Made by a program: the position numbers and the translations under genes. A stretch of 46,189 bases of DNA from Flavobacteriales bacterium (GTDB taxonomy: Bacteria > Bacteroidota > Bacteroidia > UBA10329): NCBI GenBank assembly GCA_016124845.1, contig WGMW01000032.1, positions 1 through 46,189 on the forward strand, read 5' to 3'. Below, piece after piece: positions 2,725 through 26,579 of the stretch. Position 1 is the first letter of the stretch. Each line of letters starts with the position of its first letter. The notes beneath the pieces were generated by a model. The model had not been told where the DNA came from and made no database searches. It saw only the letters and a program-made list of their open reading frames with translations.

Positions 2725-4347
2725 TCACTCAACCTCCTTGCTCAAGAACAACAACAGATCATCCCGAAGCCTCATCTCTTTGAAATCCTTCTTCGACATC
2801 GGTACCGAGGTCCATTCCTTATTGGTCACCAGCACACGCTTCTGCCCCTCCGAAGGCGTTTCATAGATCAACGGCATTCGGAAACCTTCCGCATCCGCTT
2901 TCCAACGTAGTTCAAGGTTCTTCTTGTCCCAGCGGTATTCCAACACCGGAACATCCGAAAACTTCAGATACTGTTCGAACAGAGGCATGTAATTGTACTT
3001 CGCGCGGCCGTTGATGTAATTCACGATCTCCTCGCCATCCACCGTTCGGTACGCGAACTCCTGCGCAATGCCTTTCAGAATACTTCGGAAAAGCGAATCG
3101 TTGTTCAACACATTTCGGAACGTATGGATCATCCAAGCGCCCTTGTAATACATATCGCCACTGTTGCCCTCGTGGTTCAATCCGTAAACCCCATAAATGG
3201 GCGTACGGTTGTTGATCATGTATTTCTGATTCTTAAGATATTCCAACATGCTATCATAACCATACCTGCACTCCACATACACCGATTCAGAATACGTGCA
3301 GAAACTCTCGTGGATCCACATATCGGCCGCATCCTTCATGCTCACGCTGTTGCCCCACCATTCGTGTCCCGTTTCGTGGATGATGATGTAGTCGAAATCC
3401 ATGTCTTTCGGATAGCGCCCCCAATAGCCCTTCATATACTTGTTTCCGTAGGCAATGGCCCCCTGATGTTCCATGCCTGCATAAGGCGTTTCCACCAAGG
3501 CATAGCCATCATTGTAGAAAGGATAAGGGCCGAATGCCTCTTCAAAGCAATCCATCATCTTTGGCACCTGCTTGAACTGCTCTTTCGCCTTGTCCAAGTT
3601 CTCCTTCAGCACGTAATAGTCCAATTTCAGTGAATCGCCCTGCGCGTTCGCATAAACACCACCAAAATGCGCGTAATCGGCAATGTTCAAGGTCACATTG
3701 TAGTTGTTGATGGGATAGCTGATCTTCCAAACCCATTCCATTCCATCCGACTGCAAATTCCTCGACTCCAACTCTCCGTTCGAAACACACATCAGCCCGT
3801 TCGGAACCGTGCATCTCACCCGCATGCTGTCCGGTTCATCCGAAAGATGGTCCTTGTTCGGCCACCAAAGACTTGCTCCGGTTCCTTCGCATGCCACTCC
3901 GACCCATGGTTTACCAGACCCGTCCTTTGTCCACACAAAACCACCATCCCAAGGCGCGCGTTTGGCTATGGTCGGTTGCCCGTGATAGTAAACGGAAACA
4001 ACCCCATCTTCCCCCGCCTTCATCGTCTCTGGGAAACGCACAAAAAACGCATCGAACAAACGCGAAAAACCCAATTGCTTCCCATGGTAGAGAACGCTGT
4101 CAATGGTCATGTTCGCGAACAGATCCAATTGCAGACTGTCAAAATCCGTCATGGTCTGAAAATGAATCTCATTCACACCCGAAATAGACTTCCCTTCAAT
4201 GTCAACCTTCAATTGAAGGTCATAATACGTTACATCGAAACACGCACGTATCGGAGAAAGCGTTCCGCGCAGCGTATCCGCCAACGTAAATTCCTGGGCA
4301 TTTGCCGCAAACGGAAGAATCAGAACAAGTAGTAAGAGATTTCTCAT
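2725..4347 (-). CDS. M1 family metallopeptidase (secreted aminopeptidase)
   Basis: 540 residues. Signal peptide MRNLLLLVLILPFAANAQ sends it to the periplasm or outside. The M1 zinc site is complete: HETGH at 324-328 (zinc ligands H324 and H328, catalytic E325), with the third ligand E347 in WIHESFCTY, giving the HEXXH-X18-E spacing. The exopeptidase motif is GMEHQGAIAYG at 291-301 (classical GxMEN, with His for Asn). A Tyr pair at 400-401 may hold the transition-state tyrosine. It is shorter than full M1 enzymes and lacks the long C-terminal helical domain, as in many Bacteroidota M1 paralogues. It likely trims peptides for amino acid supply. Its 3' end borders repeat block 2185-2705. Confidence 0.93.
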   Translation of the reverse strand: MRNLLLLVLILPFAANAQEFTLADTLRGTLSPIRACFDVTYYDLQLKVDIEGKSISGVNEIHFQTMTDFDSLQLDLFANMTIDSVLYHGKQLGFSRLFDAFFVRFPETMKAGEDGVVSVYYHGQPTIAKRAPWDGGFVWTKDGSGKPWVGVACEGTGASLWWPNKDHLSDEPDSMRVRCTVPNGLMCVSNGELESRNLQSDGMEWVWKISYPINNYNVTLNIADYAHFGGVYANAQGDSLKLDYYVLKENLDKAKEQFKQVPKMMDCFEEAFGPYPFYNDGYALVETPYAGMEHQGAIAYGNKYMKGYWGRYPKDMDFDYIIIHETGHEWWGNSVSMKDAADMWIHESFCTYSESVYVECRYGYDSMLEYLKNQKYMINNRTPIYGVYGLNHEGNSGDMYYKGAWMIHTFRNVLNNDSLFRSILKGIAQEFAYRTVDGEEIVNYINGRAKYNYMPLFEQYLKFSDVPVLEYRWDKKNLELRWKADAEGFRMPLIYETPSEGQKRVLVTNKEWTSVPMSKKDFKEMRLRDDLLLFLSKEVE

Positions 4348-19703: not shown

Positions 19704-20528
19704 TCATTTCTCTACTGGAGTTTGATAAAACGATTGTCTGTCTTTGAACGGATCTTCCAAACCAAGTGCATCATACACGTACTTGAACGTGGAAAGAATC
19801 TCAGGTTTTCCACCAACGATGGCCACATCATGCTCGAAGTGTGCGGAAGGTTTTCCATCCAATGTAACGATGGTCCAGCCATCTTCCAATTGTGCAACAT
19901 CGGCTGTTCCAAGATTGATCATCGGCTCAATGGCCAACACCAGACCTTCCTTCATCTTTTTACCATCTCCTCGCTTTCCATAGTTCGGAAGTTCGGGATC
20001 TTCGTGCATGCTCTTGCCCAGACCATGACCTACCAATTCCCTCACAACTCCGTAACCATGTTTTTCGGCATGATGCTGCACCGCGTAGCCCACATCTCCA
20101 ATTCGATTTCCAGATCGGATCTGCTCAATTCCGAGGTAAAGACTTTCTTCTGTCACTTTCAGAAGCTTCTTCACTTCATCCTTGATCTCACCAACGGCAA
20201 ATGTGAACGCATGATCGCCATAGTAACCGTTCAGAATCGCGCCACAGTCAACAGAAATGATGTCGCCTTCTTCCAGCGCTTTATCGGAAGGAATTCCATG
20301 GACCACCTGCTCGTTTACAGAAGTACAAAGCGTATTCGGGAAACCACCGTAACCTAAAAACCCTGGCACGGCACCTTGGTCGCGGATGTATTCTTCGGCC
20401 ACTTTATCCAATTCCAATGGCGTAACGCCTGGTCTGATGAGTTTGGCCACTTCGCCCAACGTGCGCGAAACCACCAAGGCGCTCTCCCGCATCAATTCAA
20501 TCTGCTCTTTCGTCTTCAGTACTGCCAT
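19704..20528 (-). CDS. map: Type I methionyl aminopeptidase
   Basis: 274 residues, standard type I length. The start MAVLKTKEQIELMRESALVV is typical. Two-metal site: DCGAILNGYYGDHAFTF (both Asp), the His of ELVGHGLGKSMHEDP, Glu in LAIEPMINLG and Glu in FEHDVAIVGG. It removes the initiator methionine from nascent proteins in the cytosol. Its ATG overlaps the stop of the HAD gene in a TAATG junction, so the two are translationally coupled. Confidence 0.97.
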   Translation of the reverse strand: MAVLKTKEQIELMRESALVVSRTLGEVAKLIRPGVTPLELDKVAEEYIRDQGAVPGFLGYGGFPNTLCTSVNEQVVHGIPSDKALEEGDIISVDCGAILNGYYGDHAFTFAVGEIKDEVKKLLKVTEESLYLGIEQIRSGNRIGDVGYAVQHHAEKHGYGVVRELVGHGLGKSMHEDPELPNYGKRGDGKKMKEGLVLAIEPMINLGTADVAQLEDGWTIVTLDGKPSAHFEHDVAIVGGKPEILSTFKYVYDALGLEDPFKDRQSFYQTPVEK

Positions 20529-20962
20529 TATCCTCCAAACAATTTTCCGAACATTCCTTTACTCTTCTGCTTCGGCTGATGCATCTGTTCGCCAGCCGCT
20601 TCTGGATGAATGATTCTGAATATCTCGCCCCAACCGATAAATCCACCTACGTTCCGATCATCAATGAACAGATCGCAATCAATTTTGCGGCTGGCTTCAT
20701 TCGAATCAAACTGCTCTTCGGGAAAACTTCTGTTCACCGCATAGAACTCAATTCCGTTCTGACGGCAGTATTCCACGGCTTCATCCAAGGTTTTTCCATG
20801 GCGGAACGTCCATAGAATTAATCTGTGACCGCGTTTCTGAAGTTCCTTCAGCGTAGCAAACGCAAAGGGCATTTCTTTGCCAATAGCAGGGTATTTGTGC
20901 TCCACCACGGTTCCGTCAAAATCGACCGCAATGACCAGCGATTTGCCCATCATCATATCCAT
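20528..20962 (-). CDS. HAD-family hydrolase of the BT0820 type
   Basis: 144 residues. HAD motif I is AVDFDGTVVEHKYPAIG (D14 and D16), motif II region is HRLILWTFRHG, and the closing acidic motif is CDLFIDDRNVGGFIGW. It lacks a cap domain and matches the small BT_0820-like HAD group of Bacteroidota; the substrate is unknown. Several ATGs occur at the start (MDMMMGK), so the exact initiation may be up to 12 bp later. A family A repeat lies upstream. Confidence 0.9.
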   Translation of the reverse strand: MDMMMGKSLVIAVDFDGTVVEHKYPAIGKEMPFAFATLKELQKRGHRLILWTFRHGKTLDEAVEYCRQNGIEFYAVNRSFPEEQFDSNEASRKIDCDLFIDDRNVGGFIGWGEIFRIIHPEAAGEQMHQPKQKSKGMFGKLFGG

Positions 20963-21129: not shown

Positions 21130-21744
21130 TTAGATGTAATCTGTCCGAATTACGTTCAGATCCTTATCGAACTCGTACAGCTTCGGTTTACCTGTTGGCA
21201 CTTCCGTTTTCAGGATTTCCTCTGGAGACAGTTTTTCGAGATACATGATCAATGCACGAAGGCTGTTTCCATGAGCCGCAATGATAATGGTCTTGCCTGC
21301 TTTCAGTTCTGGTTCAATCACCTCTTTGAAATAAGGCAGTACGCGGTCGGCCGTTCCTTTCAGACTTTCACCTCCCGGAGGTGGTGTATCGAAACTTCTT
21401 CTCCAAATATGAACCTGCTCTGCACCGAACTGTGCCCGTGCCTCGTCCTTGTTCATGCCTTGCAGGTCGCCATACATGCGCTCGTTCAGGGCTTCATTCT
21501 CAACTACTTCAAGATCAGGTTGACCAATCACTTCCAAAATATTCTTCAGCGTATTCTGAGCACGCACCAAGGCTGAGGTGAAACCCTTGTCGAATTTGTA
21601 ACCTTTCAGTTTCTCGCCAGCTTCCTTTGCTTCCGCAACTCCTTTCGGAGCAAGGTCAACGTTGACCCAACCCGTAAAGCGGTTCTCTGCGTTCCATTGC
21701 GATTGTCCGTGGCGGACGATGACCAGTTTTGCGTATGGTTTCAT
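21130..21744 (-). CDS. gpmA: 2,3-bisphosphoglycerate-dependent phosphoglycerate mutase
   Basis: 204 residues, the short form of dPGM. RHGQSQWNAENRFTGW carries the phospho-accepting H12; further blocks are TSALVRAQNTL, NEALNERMYGDLQGMNKDEA, IWRRSFDTPPPGGESL and the second His in IIAAHGNSLRALI. It interconverts 3- and 2-phosphoglycerate in glycolysis and gluconeogenesis. A single-gene unit with repeats on both sides. Confidence 0.97.
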   Translation of the reverse strand: MKPYAKLVIVRHGQSQWNAENRFTGWVNVDLAPKGVAEAKEAGEKLKGYKFDKGFTSALVRAQNTLKNILEVIGQPDLEVVENEALNERMYGDLQGMNKDEARAQFGAEQVHIWRRSFDTPPPGGESLKGTADRVLPYFKEVIEPELKAGKTIIIAAHGNSLRALIMYLEKLSPEEILKTEVPTGKPKLYEFDKDLNVIRTDYI

Positions 21745-21894: not shown

Positions 21895-22434
21895 TCACTC
21901 GTCCCACTCCAAAGAGTATTTCGTTTCAATTTTGCGTTCCGCGATGCGCTTCAAGTGTCCTTTTACTGAACGCTGCCGATGCGTGTTCAATCGATCGATG
22001 AGCGTGATTCCGTTCAGTTGATCGATACCCTGCTGCACCAAACGGGCCGCAAGGTCGGAAAACGTTGCCGTTTGTTCCTTCAGATCCCCATCAAAAAAAC
22101 AGACCTCTATTTGTTTTGGCCGTTCGATGGAAACCGACAGCCTCGGAAGACTAATATCTTCTTCCAATCCTGAAACCAACGGAGCTTTACTCGAAATCAG
22201 CTTCGGATTGATGAAAACAGCCTCAAAATCTTCAGGTTTTGGACGTGCATAATTGAGGTTGATGATAAATGCCTGCAAATTCAGTCCAACGTGCTTGGCC
22301 GAAACCAACGGACAGGCCAATTGCTTCTGTAGATTTTGCATTTCAAGAATCAGTTCAGCAGCATTCGTTGCATCACCGATAGGCAAAGCCACCGAACGAT
22401 AGATCGCGTTTCCGTACGCCTGCACGTTCGCCAT
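21895..22434 (-). CDS. Peptide deformylase-like protein lacking the active site
   Basis: 179 residues from ATG 22434, whose first base is shared with the last base of the leucyl aminopeptidase stop (TAATG). An upstream extension of the frame to 22557 lies inside that gene and is rejected. Length and order match peptide deformylase throughout: VQAYGNAIYRSVALPI, FEAVFINPKLISSKA, the tail FDGDLKEQTATFSDLAARLV and GITLIDRLN. Yet all three active motifs are ruined: GxGLAxxQ reads HVGLNLQ (48-54), EGCLS reads EEDISLP (91-97, metal Cys gone), and HExDH reads QGIDQ (135-139, both metal His and the catalytic Glu gone). It cannot be a normal metallo-deformylase. It may bind nascent peptides or ribosomes, or have a new role. 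Confidence 0.88.
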   Translation of the reverse strand: MANVQAYGNAIYRSVALPIGDATNAAELILEMQNLQKQLACPLVSAKHVGLNLQAFIINLNYARPKPEDFEAVFINPKLISSKAPLVSGLEEDISLPRLSVSIERPKQIEVCFFDGDLKEQTATFSDLAARLVQQGIDQLNGITLIDRLNTHRQRSVKGHLKRIAERKIETKYSLEWDE

Positions 22435-23867
22435 TAGGCGTAATTGTTCTTGATGAAATGGTACAACAATCGCACGCCCGTTCCCGTGCCGCCCTTCAAC
22501 CGATAATCCTTGGTGCTGTCCATGAACGCGGGTCCCGCAATATCCAAGTGGATCCAAGGATAATCCGTGAAATGATGGAGGAATGTTGCAGCCGTGATAT
22601 TACCACCTGCTGCACCTCCAATATTCTTAATATCAGCCACTTCCGACTTTATCGCATCGTGGAACTCCTTCCACATCGGGAACTCCATCAAACGCTCGTA
22701 GACGGTTTCGCCACTCGCTTTCAATTGTTCCTTTTGAGGTGCTTTATCGGCACACATGGAAATTCCGTGATAATCGGTTATTCGAGCCGCAGCGCCTGTC
22801 AAGGTCGCCAGGTCGATAACCAGTTCAGGCTTGTATTGCTTGGCGTAATGCAGCGCATCGGCCAGAATCAAACGGCCTTCCGCATCGGTGTTCAAAACCT
22901 CCACGGTCGAACCGCTCATCATGGTAATGACATCATCGGCCACCAGCGCTTTTCCATCAATGCGATTGTCCGTTGCGGGAATAAGACCGATCACGTGAAC
23001 AGGCAACTTATTGGCCGAAATGGCTGCCATCGTTCCGCACACGGCCGCGCCACCGCCCATATCGCATTTCATATTGGCCATCTGAACGGTCTTTACGTTG
23101 TAACCACCTGTGTCATAAACAACGCCTTTACCTACCAGAACGATCGGCTTCTTGTTCTTGGCATTCTTCGGTTTCCATTCGAGGATGTTGAAGGTCGGTG
23201 GCTCCACCGAACCTTTGTTCACACCCAAAAGACCGCCCATTTTCAGCTTCTCGATCTTCTTCTTGTCGAAGGTGGTTGTGGTAAAACCTGTGGCTTTCCC
23301 GAGTTCACCTATGCGTTTGCTCCATTCGGTCGCAGTAAGCGTAATGACGGGTTCATTCACAAAATCGCGCGCAGCGAAAACGGCCGAAAGCAATCCTGAA
23401 AGTTCATCCAATTCCTTTTGAGACAGATCGGAAACCACACTCAGTTTCTGAAGCGTGTTCGGTTTCTTTCCATCGCCTGTTTTGTAGGTAAGAAACTGAT
23501 AGTTTGAAAGTGCAATTCCTTCCAAAACCGCCAACAGCTCATCTTTCTCAAGACCCAAATTCACGATACTGGCCGATTTCGATCTCTCGCGATTGAGAAG
23601 CGTCTTCAGCTTGGTTCCGAGCACACGCGCATGCTGCAAACGATAGCTGTTCTCCGCGTCCTTCTTCGGTTTGGCAACTGCCATTCCATCCTGAGATGAA
23701 GGAACAAAAAACACCAGTTCATCATCTCCAACCCGTTCTTCCACTTTGGTTTTCAGGTCTCCAAGTGCATCTATCTTTCCAAGATCATCTTTGGACGAAA
23801 CCAAATAAATGACCGCACCACTTGGCTTGGATGCTTTCTTCAATTCAATCAATCCACTACTCTTCAT
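22434..23867 (-). CDS. Leucyl aminopeptidase family protein (M17)
   Basis: 477 residues from ATG 23867; an alternative start 42 bp upstream adds MVAIGYLARPKNQR, which does not look like family sequence. The N-terminal domain (1 to about 160) is divergent. The catalytic domain has the two-zinc site: VGKGVVYDTGGYNVK (K247, D252), MKCDMGGGAAV (D269) and NTDAEGRLILADAL (D328, E330, R332). It removes N-terminal residues from peptides in the cytosol, probably as a hexamer. The last codon overlaps the start of the deformylase-like gene, so both are made together. Confidence 0.95.
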   Translation of the reverse strand: MKSSGLIELKKASKPSGAVIYLVSSKDDLGKIDALGDLKTKVEERVGDDELVFFVPSSQDGMAVAKPKKDAENSYRLQHARVLGTKLKTLLNRERSKSASIVNLGLEKDELLAVLEGIALSNYQFLTYKTGDGKKPNTLQKLSVVSDLSQKELDELSGLLSAVFAARDFVNEPVITLTATEWSKRIGELGKATGFTTTTFDKKKIEKLKMGGLLGVNKGSVEPPTFNILEWKPKNAKNKKPIVLVGKGVVYDTGGYNVKTVQMANMKCDMGGGAAVCGTMAAISANKLPVHVIGLIPATDNRIDGKALVADDVITMMSGSTVEVLNTDAEGRLILADALHYAKQYKPELVIDLATLTGAAARITDYHGISMCADKAPQKEQLKASGETVYERLMEFPMWKEFHDAIKSEVADIKNIGGAAGGNITAATFLHHFTDYPWIHLDIAGPAFMDSTKDYRLKGGTGTGVRLLYHFIKNNYA

Positions 23868-23982
23868 TCGCTGATTTTTAGGGCGCGCAAGGTAACCAAT
23901 TGCAACCAAGCCGTTACCAATACCTTACCTATTGTTAAAGTCGTTGCCAATTTGGCTTCTGAAACTGGTTTCATCGCCACAA

Positions 23983-24021: not shown

Positions 24022-24029
24022 TACCTTTG
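24022..24029 (+). promoter_or_regulatory. -7 box of mntR
   Basis: TACCTTTG, exact match to TAnnTTTG, only 8 bp before the ATG at 24038. Transcription would start at or within a few bases of the start codon, giving a very short or absent leader. Confidence 0.55.
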
Positions 24030-24037
24030 TGTTCCAA

Positions 24038-24694
24038 ATGGCCAATTCATTCACGGAGGAAAATTACCTCAAGCAGATATACAAGCTCTCGAAGAAATCC
24101 GACAAGGGTGTGAGCACCAATGCGCTGGCAGAGCGATTGGACACGAAAGCTTCATCGGTTACGGATATGCTTCAGAAATTGGCAGCTAAAAAATTTGTCA
24201 ACTACCAGAAATATCAGGGCGTTACTCTCACGAAAAAGGGACAGAAGATCGCGGTGAACATCATCCGAAAGCATCGCCTTTGGGAAGTTTTTCTTGTGGA
24301 TAATCTTGGTTTTGGCTGGGATGAAGTGCATGACGTTGCCGAAGAGTTGGAGCACATCAATTCAGATGTTCTGGTGGAACGGCTGGATAGATTTTTAGGC
24401 TTCCCGAAATATGACCCGCATGGCGGACCGATTCCTGACAGCGAAGGGAATTTCCCCGCTCCAGCACGTGTAAAATTGGATGAATTTGAGGTTGGAAAGC
24501 AATCGAAAGTGATGGGAATAACGGAGCACTCTGAAAGCTTTCTGGCATACATGAAGAAGATCGGACTGGACCTTGGCGTGGAGTTCAAACTCACAGAACG
24601 CCACGACTTCGACCGATCGGTAGAAATTGAACTGAACGGGAAAATCGTTCAACTCAGCCACGAAGTGGCGAAAAACATATTTGTTGCTTATTGA
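24038..24694 (+). CDS. DtxR/MntR-family metal-dependent regulator
   Basis: 218 residues from ATG 24038 (a GTG nine bases earlier is in frame but would lie at the promoter box). N-terminal winged helix: FTEENYLKQIYKLSKK, STNALAERLDTKASSVTDMLQKL; then the dimerisation/metal domain with LWEVFLVDNLGFGWDEVHDVAEELEHINSD and FPKYDPHGGPIPDSEGNF, holding the Glu and His ligands expected for manganese or iron; a C-terminal FeoA-like part follows (about 150-218). It likely represses the downstream transporter when metal is plentiful, via the palindrome at 23983-24000. Its stop lies one base before the mntH ATG. Confidence 0.93.
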   Translation: MANSFTEENYLKQIYKLSKKSDKGVSTNALAERLDTKASSVTDMLQKLAAKKFVNYQKYQGVTLTKKGQKIAVNIIRKHRLWEVFLVDNLGFGWDEVHDVAEELEHINSDVLVERLDRFLGFPKYDPHGGPIPDSEGNFPAPARVKLDEFEVGKQSKVMGITEHSESFLAYMKKIGLDLGVEFKLTERHDFDRSVEIELNGKIVQLSHEVAKNIFVAY

Positions 24695-24695
24695 A

Positions 24696-26579
24696 ATGAA
24701 GCATACACACGCAGGAAAGTCATTGGAAGAGGTTCATCAGTCGGTGAACACTATGGAGAAAAAAGGCTTTTTCAAGAAGCTTTTGGCCTTTATGGGACCT
24801 GCTTACCTGATCAGTGTCGGCTACATGGATCCAGGCAATTGGGCCACAGACATCGCGGGTGGAAGCCAATACGGTTACACACTCATTTGGGTGCTACTGA
24901 TGTCGAACATCATGGCCCTGCTACTCCAAAGTCTTTCAGCCCGACTTGGCATTGTAAGTGGCCGCGACCTGGCACAGGCATCCAAGGAAACTTACCTGCC
25001 GTTTGTCAACTTCATGCTTTACATTCTGGCCGAAGTGGCCATTGCCGCCTGCGATCTGGCCGAAGTGCTGGGAATGGCCATCGGACTTCAATTACTGTTC
25101 GGACTGCCATTGATCTGGGGCGTTTGCCTGACGGTGCTGGATACATTCATACTCCTCTTCCTGATCAATAATGGGATGAGACGCATGGAAGCTTTCATAT
25201 TGGCGTTAGTTGCCATTATCGGTGCGGCCTTTTTGGTGGAAATGGTGCTTGCACAACCATCTTTGGGCGAAATCGCAACGGGGTTTGCCCCTTCCATCCC
25301 CGACAATGCAGCCCTTTACATTGCCATCGGGATCATCGGTGCCACGGTAATGCCGCACAATCTTTATCTGCACTCATCTCTTGTTCAAACAAGAAAATAT
25401 GAGCGAACGGAACGTGGCATGAAAAAAGCCATCCGCTTCAACCTAATTGACACTACCATTGCGCTGAACCTGGCCTTTTTCGTCAATGCCGCCATCCTGA
25501 TACTTGCGGCCGCCACCTTCTTTAAAAATGGCATGTTCGATGTGGCCGAAATTCAGGACGCACACCAGTTCTTAGAACCCATTCTCGGTTCAAAATTGGC
25601 ACCGATACTTTTTGCTGTTGCATTAATCGCAGCTGGACAGAGTTCCACACTTACGGGCACTCTTGCGGGGCAAATAGTTATGGAAGGTTATTTGAATCTG
25701 CGGATTCAACCATGGATCAGGCGGATCATTACACGTTTGCTCGCCATCATTCCTGCTTTGGTGGCCATCATCCTTTTTGGCGAAAGTTCAACCAACGACC
25801 TCCTGATCCTGAGTCAAGTTGTACTCAGCCTTCAACTTGGTTTCGCCATCATTCCACTTATTCATTTTGTGAGCGATAAGAAACGGATGGGGCCGTTCAC
25901 GATCGGTCGTTTGACACAATTCGGAGCGTGGGTGTGCGCGGTCATTATCGTTGGTCTGAATGTGAAATTGGTATATGAGGAAATTGCCAGTTGGATGGCA
26001 AACTCGCAGGACAGCCTGATTCTTTGGTTGACCGTGGTCCCCATCGCCATTGGATTCGGCCTATTGCTGGTCTGGGTGGCGTTCCGACCTTTGATCATCA
26101 AATACTTGAACCGACCGATCAAACTACCGCACGGTGTGGCAAAGGAAATGGAACCACGGACACGCCCCGAATACAAGAAGATCGCGCTTGCCATCGACTT
26201 TAGCGATACCGATGAGGTCATCCTCGGCCACGCGCTTCCGTTGGGAAATGAAAACACGGAATTCCTACTTCTTCACGTAGTTGAAACCGCAGGAGCACTC
26301 TACTTGGGAAGTGAGATCAAGGATTTTGAAACATCAGAGGATACCGAAAATCTGGAACGGTACGCACAACGCCTCCGATCGGAAGGTTATCAAGTAACCA
26401 CCAAACTCGGTTATGGAAACCCAAAGAAGAGTATTCCCGAATTAGTGAAGGCTTTCGATGCCGACCTTTTGGTCATGGGTGCTCATGGCCACCGCATATT
26501 GAAAGACCTGTTGTTCGGAACAACCATTGATGCCGTTCGCCATGAAGTGGGTATTCCCGTGTTGGTAGTTCAGGCGTAA
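24696..26579 (+). CDS. mntH: NRAMP divalent metal transporter fused to a universal stress protein domain
   Basis: 627 residues. The first about 450 form an NRAMP carrier with eleven or so membrane helices, the metal-binding DPGN in GYMDPGNWATD (helix 1) and MPHN in TVMPHNLYLHSS (helix 6). The C-terminal about 150 residues are cytoplasmic and form a UspA domain: YKKIALAIDFSDTDEVIL at its start and the ATP-binding-type loop MGAHGHRILKDLLFG, then GIPVLVVQ. It imports manganese or iron with protons; the Usp part may tune activity by nucleotide. It is cotranscribed with the DtxR-type regulator (1 bp between stop and ATG). Such fusions are known in Bacteroidota. It ends 6 bp before the convergent lipoprotein stop. 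Confidence 0.95.
   Translation: MKHTHAGKSLEEVHQSVNTMEKKGFFKKLLAFMGPAYLISVGYMDPGNWATDIAGGSQYGYTLIWVLLMSNIMALLLQSLSARLGIVSGRDLAQASKETYLPFVNFMLYILAEVAIAACDLAEVLGMAIGLQLLFGLPLIWGVCLTVLDTFILLFLINNGMRRMEAFILALVAIIGAAFLVEMVLAQPSLGEIATGFAPSIPDNAALYIAIGIIGATVMPHNLYLHSSLVQTRKYERTERGMKKAIRFNLIDTTIALNLAFFVNAAILILAAATFFKNGMFDVAEIQDAHQFLEPILGSKLAPILFAVALIAAGQSSTLTGTLAGQIVMEGYLNLRIQPWIRRIITRLLAIIPALVAIILFGESSTNDLLILSQVVLSLQLGFAIIPLIHFVSDKKRMGPFTIGRLTQFGAWVCAVIIVGLNVKLVYEEIASWMANSQDSLILWLTVVPIAIGFGLLLVWVAFRPLIIKYLNRPIKLPHGVAKEMEPRTRPEYKKIALAIDFSDTDEVILGHALPLGNENTEFLLLHVVETAGALYLGSEIKDFETSEDTENLERYAQRLRSEGYQVTTKLGYGNPKKSIPELVKAFDADLLVMGAHGHRILKDLLFGTTIDAVRHEVGIPVLVVQA

Follow-up and report, generated by a model that had tools for sequence, protein, structure and literature searches.

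What can a peptide deformylase fold be kept for once its catalytic residues are gone? The question is raised by a gene on the minus strand of contig WGMW01000032.1 (assembly GCA_016124845.1, Flavobacteriales bacterium), whose full length of 46,189 nucleotides is called the window here. A sequence-only reading had proposed that its product follows deformylase from end to end while every catalytic motif is erased. Profile and structure searches agree with the first half of this claim. The 179-aa protein matches PF01327 (Pep_deformylase) with E = 2.6e-27 and 95.8 bits, over the cut-off of 22.8, and the alignment takes in the full length of the family (protein residues 2-153 versus profile positions 2-154 of 156). 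Pep_deformylase is its single significant Pfam family; NCBIfam deformylase models also match, each under its curated cut-off. A PDB sequence search gave 42 matches, all of them deformylases except, by name, the phage entry 3uwa, which carries another name in the sequence table but is given in the structure list as a probable deformylase. The AlphaFold model, built on eight aligned sequences, has a deformylase fold (mean pLDDT 74.8, pTM 0.72), and every structure match listed for it, 50 from Foldseek and 50 from VIA, is a deformylase (Z up to 20.2). The protein is confirmed as a deformylase homologue with a predicted deformylase fold.

Table 1. Features of the deformylase-like gene and its neighbours in the window
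Feature	Positions	Strand	Details
Deformylase-like gene without catalytic residues	21895..22434	-	179 aa, ATG start; PF01327 match, deformylase fold, eight orthologous copies
C-terminal helix segment DRLNTHRQRSVKGHLKRI	21943..21996	-	Corresponds to the helix by which E. coli deformylase docks on the ribosome, from AlphaFold model and alignment
Motif III equivalent	22009..22035	-	Residues 134-142, QQGIDQLNG for QHEYDHLEG
Motif II equivalent	22150..22164	-	Residues 91-95, EEDIS for EGCLS; E91 kept in 8/8
Motif I equivalent	22291..22314	-	Residues 41-48, CPLVSAKH for GVGLAAPQ; K47 and H48 shared by all 8 orthologues
M17 leucyl aminopeptidase (LAP), directly upstream	22434..23909	-	PF00883, E 4.1e-106; listed ORF, likely ATG start 23867
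gpmA-like phosphoglycerate mutase, directly downstream	21130..21744	-	PF00300, E 2.9e-43; synteny
HAD-like hydrolase	20528..20962	-	Sequence motifs; linked in near relatives
Methionine aminopeptidase (map)	19704..20528	-	PF00557, E 7.9e-51; linked in near relatives

Catalytic positions were compared in an alignment of E. coli deformylase (verified with 1bs4 for sequence and numbering), 17 canonical Bacteroidia copies and the eight orthologues of the window gene; E. coli numbering is used for them below, and the motifs are restated in PMC5591237. Like canonical Bacteroidia deformylases (PF01327) in fold, length and C-terminal helix and tail, the window protein keeps E88, S92, D135 and G139 (E88 and G139 in all eight orthologues), but it lacks the metal Cys, the catalytic Glu, HExxH and the motif I Gln, and lies on a long branch. 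Lost are G43 and G45, as well as Q50 (now His), C90 (Asp), H132 (Gln), E133 (Gly) and H136 (Gln). Most of these changes run through the lineage: position 50 is His and position 49, P or T in canonical copies, is Lys in 8/8 orthologues, the metal Cys has become Asp in seven and Glu in one, the catalytic Glu is Gly in seven and Ala in one, and H136 is Gln in six and Leu in two. Seven of the eight keep the first His of HExxH, the exception being the window species with Gln; motif III of the relatives reads LHGIDQ, QHGIEQ, LHGIELL or LHAIELL. Thus all five of Cys90, His132, His136, Glu133 and Gln50 are replaced in the window protein, and at least four in every orthologue. The claim of erased motifs therefore stands for the loss of motifs I to III, with two corrections: the stretch HVGLNLQ that had been taken for motif I sits just downstream of its real equivalent, and the loss of both His of HExDH, true of the window species, does not extend to the seven orthologues that retain H132.

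A sequencing error that hides HExDH, which the same reading had named as a possible objection, is ruled out, since eight assemblies share the other replacements. The known deformylase mechanism requires Glu133 and the Cys/His/His metal site, so the window protein, to judge by its residues, cannot plausibly use it, and its deformylase activity is probably lost. An intact deformylase (G000:C6, E 1.7e-50), with GVGLAAPQ, EGCLS and HEYDH, is encoded by another gene of the same genome.

All orthologues of the gene belong to one GTDB genus. An order-level search gave nine genomes, all of this genus, of which seven hold an orthologue; the eighth copy lies on a chimeric contig (L048) binned as Alphaproteobacteria. 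When 395 Bacteroidia genomes from 197 genera were surveyed with a family profile, the seven orthologues scored 271-321 bits and everything else at most 103, so that no orthologue was found outside the lineage in this class-wide survey. A pattern-based alignment scan of 84,980 species genomes returned one ordinary deformylase (L051) besides six loci of the orthologue, and a single-sequence scan of genome contigs gave no match. The gene is present wherever the LAP-gpmA region is assembled. Of the two genomes without it, G003 is 76% complete and matches neither LAP nor gpmA, while in G007 the LAP match breaks off in a 255-aa frame (query residues 7-253) and gpmA gives no match; true gene loss is unsupported in both, because neither has an assembled LAP-gpmA region.

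The reading frame is open in all eight assemblies. Codon models gave a dN/dS of 0.154 for the deformylase-like gene versus 0.027 for the canonical deformylase, many pairwise dS values being saturated (closest pair, G001-G002: dN 0.091, dS 1.22). Orthologues share 35-67% identity, versus 71-91% for the canonical copy in the same five species, and 32 of 168 ungapped columns are invariant among them. The gene is clearly preserved by selection and is neither a sequencing error nor decaying. Its description as a maintained paralogue with an intact frame is borne out by this survey, the purifying selection and the intact second deformylase; that it is non-catalytic is what its residues suggest.

Concerning the copy binned as Alphaproteobacteria, contig L048 (3931-5433) reads as a chimera, in which LptF/LptG-like genes and the start of a pepA are fused inside pepA to a Bacteroidia region with LAP, the deformylase-like gene, gpmA and map. 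An alphaproteobacterial pepA start thus meets a Bacteroidia pepA end within one gene, and the contig probably arose by misassembly over a conserved part of pepA; horizontal spread to Alphaproteobacteria is rejected on this ground.

The altered positions are themselves conserved. Entropy at the former motif positions is 0.72 versus a protein average of 1.06 (permutation p 0.011), and twelve positions, K49, H50, acidic 90, G/A133 and H157 among them, are fixed or nearly so in the orthologues with a residue that differs from the one (near-)fixed in canonical copies. The new residues fixed in the orthologues include K49, H50, acidic 90, S153, H157 and R160. The C-terminal helix is likewise more conserved than the rest, with entropy 0.70 versus 1.06 (p 0.005). 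In E. coli deformylase, L149, K150, R153 and K157 of this helix contact uL22, and K160 and R163 contact 23S rRNA (PMC12690207). In the orthologues, positions 150, 153, 157 and 160 are invariant as R, S, H and R, position 149 is His in seven and Tyr in the other, and position 163 is mostly acidic. Of the six ribosome contacts, two thus stay basic (R150, R160), 157 has changed to His and three (149, 153, 163) are lost. The same face of the helix is constrained while its chemistry has changed, as would suit either a ribosome contact in altered form or another partner altogether; with only two contacts still basic, the helix may touch something other than the ribosome. For the sharing of nascent N-termini or ribosome sites that the sequence-only reading had suggested, the helix evidence drawn from the alignment is suggestive but mixed.

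The reading we favour, tentatively and at somewhat less than an even chance, is that of a maintained pseudo-deformylase re-selected as a binding protein. A housekeeping Bacteroidia deformylase would have been copied in the ancestor of the lineage, would have lost its deformylase chemistry while the fold was kept, and this fold would then have been re-selected for binding. Docking would most likely proceed via the conserved face of the C-terminal helix, and the ribosome, close to its exit tunnel, would be the likeliest site; deformylase and MAP compete for this place (PMC8712518). The reshaped pocket, with K47, H48, E91 and D93 of the window protein replacing the Fe site, may hold a ligand or a chain end, and once docked the protein could regulate N-terminal processing, or compete with the enzymes that carry it out, deformylase and methionine aminopeptidase. 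The intact canonical copy, the dN/dS values, the constraint on both the former motifs and the helix, the fixed contact positions and the competition for the ribosome site all point this way, as does the linkage of the gene to LAP and gpmA in all eight loci, even where other synteny is broken. Against it stand the change of all but two of the six basic or other ribosome contacts to residues that are not basic, the restriction to one GTDB genus, and the nature of the neighbours: the closest conserved ones are LAP and gpmA, and map is linked only in near relatives. Moreover, activity persists in some type 3 deformylases whose motifs are altered (T. brucei, cited in PMC12690207).

The main rival comes from the gene order. 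On the minus strand, LAP is followed by the deformylase-like gene, gpmA, a HAD-like gene (MDMMMGKSLVIAVDFDGT...) without a Pfam match at 0.001 that overlaps the start of map, and map itself. The first three genes are found together in 8/8 loci. In G006 (L049) the trio is kept, with neither HAD nor map found in ~7 kb of sequence past gpmA; the G008 contig (L050) stops soon after gpmA. At 22 LAP loci of other Bacteroidia genomes, no gpmA, HAD, map or deformylase-like gene was found in the 1.5 kb flanks, so this arrangement is specific to the lineage with the deformylase-like gene. In the window the two genes meet in TAATG, where the LAP stop TAA and the deformylase-like ATG share one base. This junction, from which coupling to the M17 aminopeptidase had been proposed, is seen in the window only: in the relatives the start is TTG, which overlaps the LAP stop or lies a few bases off, and in G006 and G008 the gap is wider. 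What holds of the proposal is the adjacency, conserved even in L049. A scan for promoters and terminators gave counts not above those of shuffled sequence. Elsewhere in the window, positions 24029-26579 (+) appear by eye to encode an MntR-like regulator followed by an NRAMP-type transporter, whose C-terminus resembles a universal-stress-protein domain.

This order would suit a protein that is a partner or regulator of LAP, translated in tandem and assembled with it, in which the dead fold controls how peptides reach the aminopeptidase hexamer. We regard it as unlikely, although in most species the start overlaps the LAP stop or is a few bases away, the trio persists without map or HAD nearby, and LAP loci elsewhere in the class lack these neighbours in their flanks. 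Its basis is gene adjacency, and by that measure gpmA is equally linked, with no evident functional link between gpmA and LAP; nor does it specifically explain why the helix face that docks on the ribosome should be constrained.

The binding-protein reading also has a narrower form, rather unlikely in our estimate, in which the former iron pocket (Lys49, His50, Glu88, acidic 90 and mostly His132) would have turned into a fixed site for binding something new. It could hold a metal in a displaced position or receive the N-terminus of a nascent chain, and the protein would regulate N-terminal processing and be made in tandem with an aminopeptidase. Were a metal indeed held there, the protein might still be an enzyme, with a two-His-one-carboxylate site of His50, Asp/Glu90 and His132 serving a different reaction or deformylation under special conditions. 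The candidate ligands are well kept (H50 and acidic 90 in 8/8, H132 in 7/8), and possible type 3 activity with alternative cofactors is discussed in PMC12690207. However, the catalytic Glu133 is Gly or Ala in all eight, and Gln at position 132 leaves the window species with two candidate ligands. By its residues, such a site appears possible in the relatives and weak in the window species, and we consider continued catalysis improbable. Residual deformylation is in any case unlikely as the role of the gene, given that the protein has no plausible mechanism and is under selection in a conserved gene order.

Inactive or weakly active accessory deformylases of type 3 have been described in S. aureus, S. 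pneumoniae, archaea and trypanosomatids, and their mark is substitution in motifs I and II (PMC12690207, PMC5591237). The window gene is like them in being an accessory homologue whose catalytic motifs are substituted and which accompanies an active copy, and it shares their mark, which would speak for a horizontally acquired member of that group instead of a lineage-specific duplicate. We find this quite improbable. In trees built from canonical and accessory Bacteroidia deformylases, the eight orthologues form one clade (100/100), which branches within the canonical Bacteroidia clade (98/90) on a very long stem (3.6 to 3.9 changes per column) and stays separate from the accessory clades that were sampled. 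That their sister is the canonical copy of the genus is neither rejected nor shown (AU p 0.41), and the C-terminal tail resembles the Bacteroidia form. Unlike type 3 proteins, the window protein has lost motif III too, its replacements are fixed across the lineage, and its gene sits in a LAP-gpmA unit. Judged by motifs and by a tree of Bacteroidia copies, it appears to be an independent, more extreme and lineage-specific case beside the known type 3. To our knowledge, no purpose has been established for the known inactive accessory deformylases, and no deformylase pseudoenzyme turned up in the literature covered.

Second deformylases were also sampled in 23 other Bacteroidia genomes, where they keep the metal Cys and HExxH, so the window lineage is the exception in this sample. 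Descent from the accessory Bacteroidia clades, whose copies retain these residues, is unsupported by the tree. Several Bacteroidia genomes (L131, L134, L137, L140 and L141) have copies of a second deformylase clade, in which motif II reads WDDCMSFP instead of EGCLS but Cys, HExxH and AAPQ are kept.

Among viral sequences, the scan returned a single degenerate match, a deformylase-like protein at 2923-3399 (+) of L071, an IMG/VR contig with recombination-nuclease-like genes. It shows the same triple change of HExDH to QGxDQ (QGMDQ) as the window protein, plus Cys to Ser in motif II, but keeps the motif I Gln. Its nearest named relative is Stenotrophomonas phage DLP6 (42% identity, motifs intact), and it groups with phage deformylases, of which the named records DLP6, Cr30, Phosso and S-SRM01 keep the metal ligands; its degeneration is an event independent of the window gene.

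Finally, a decaying functionless duplicate or an assembly artefact is extremely improbable: the fast evolution of the orthologues would suit decay, but the open frames, the dN/dS of 0.15, on which decay is rejected, the invariant columns and the presence of the gene in every assembled LAP-gpmA region speak against both.

The window gene thus encodes a protein that has no plausible deformylase mechanism and yet is selected in a conserved gene order. Automatic annotation as 'peptide deformylase' via PF01327 can fall on such probable non-enzymes, and the lineage offers a clean test case for a non-catalytic job of the deformylase fold, for example at the ribosome exit site.
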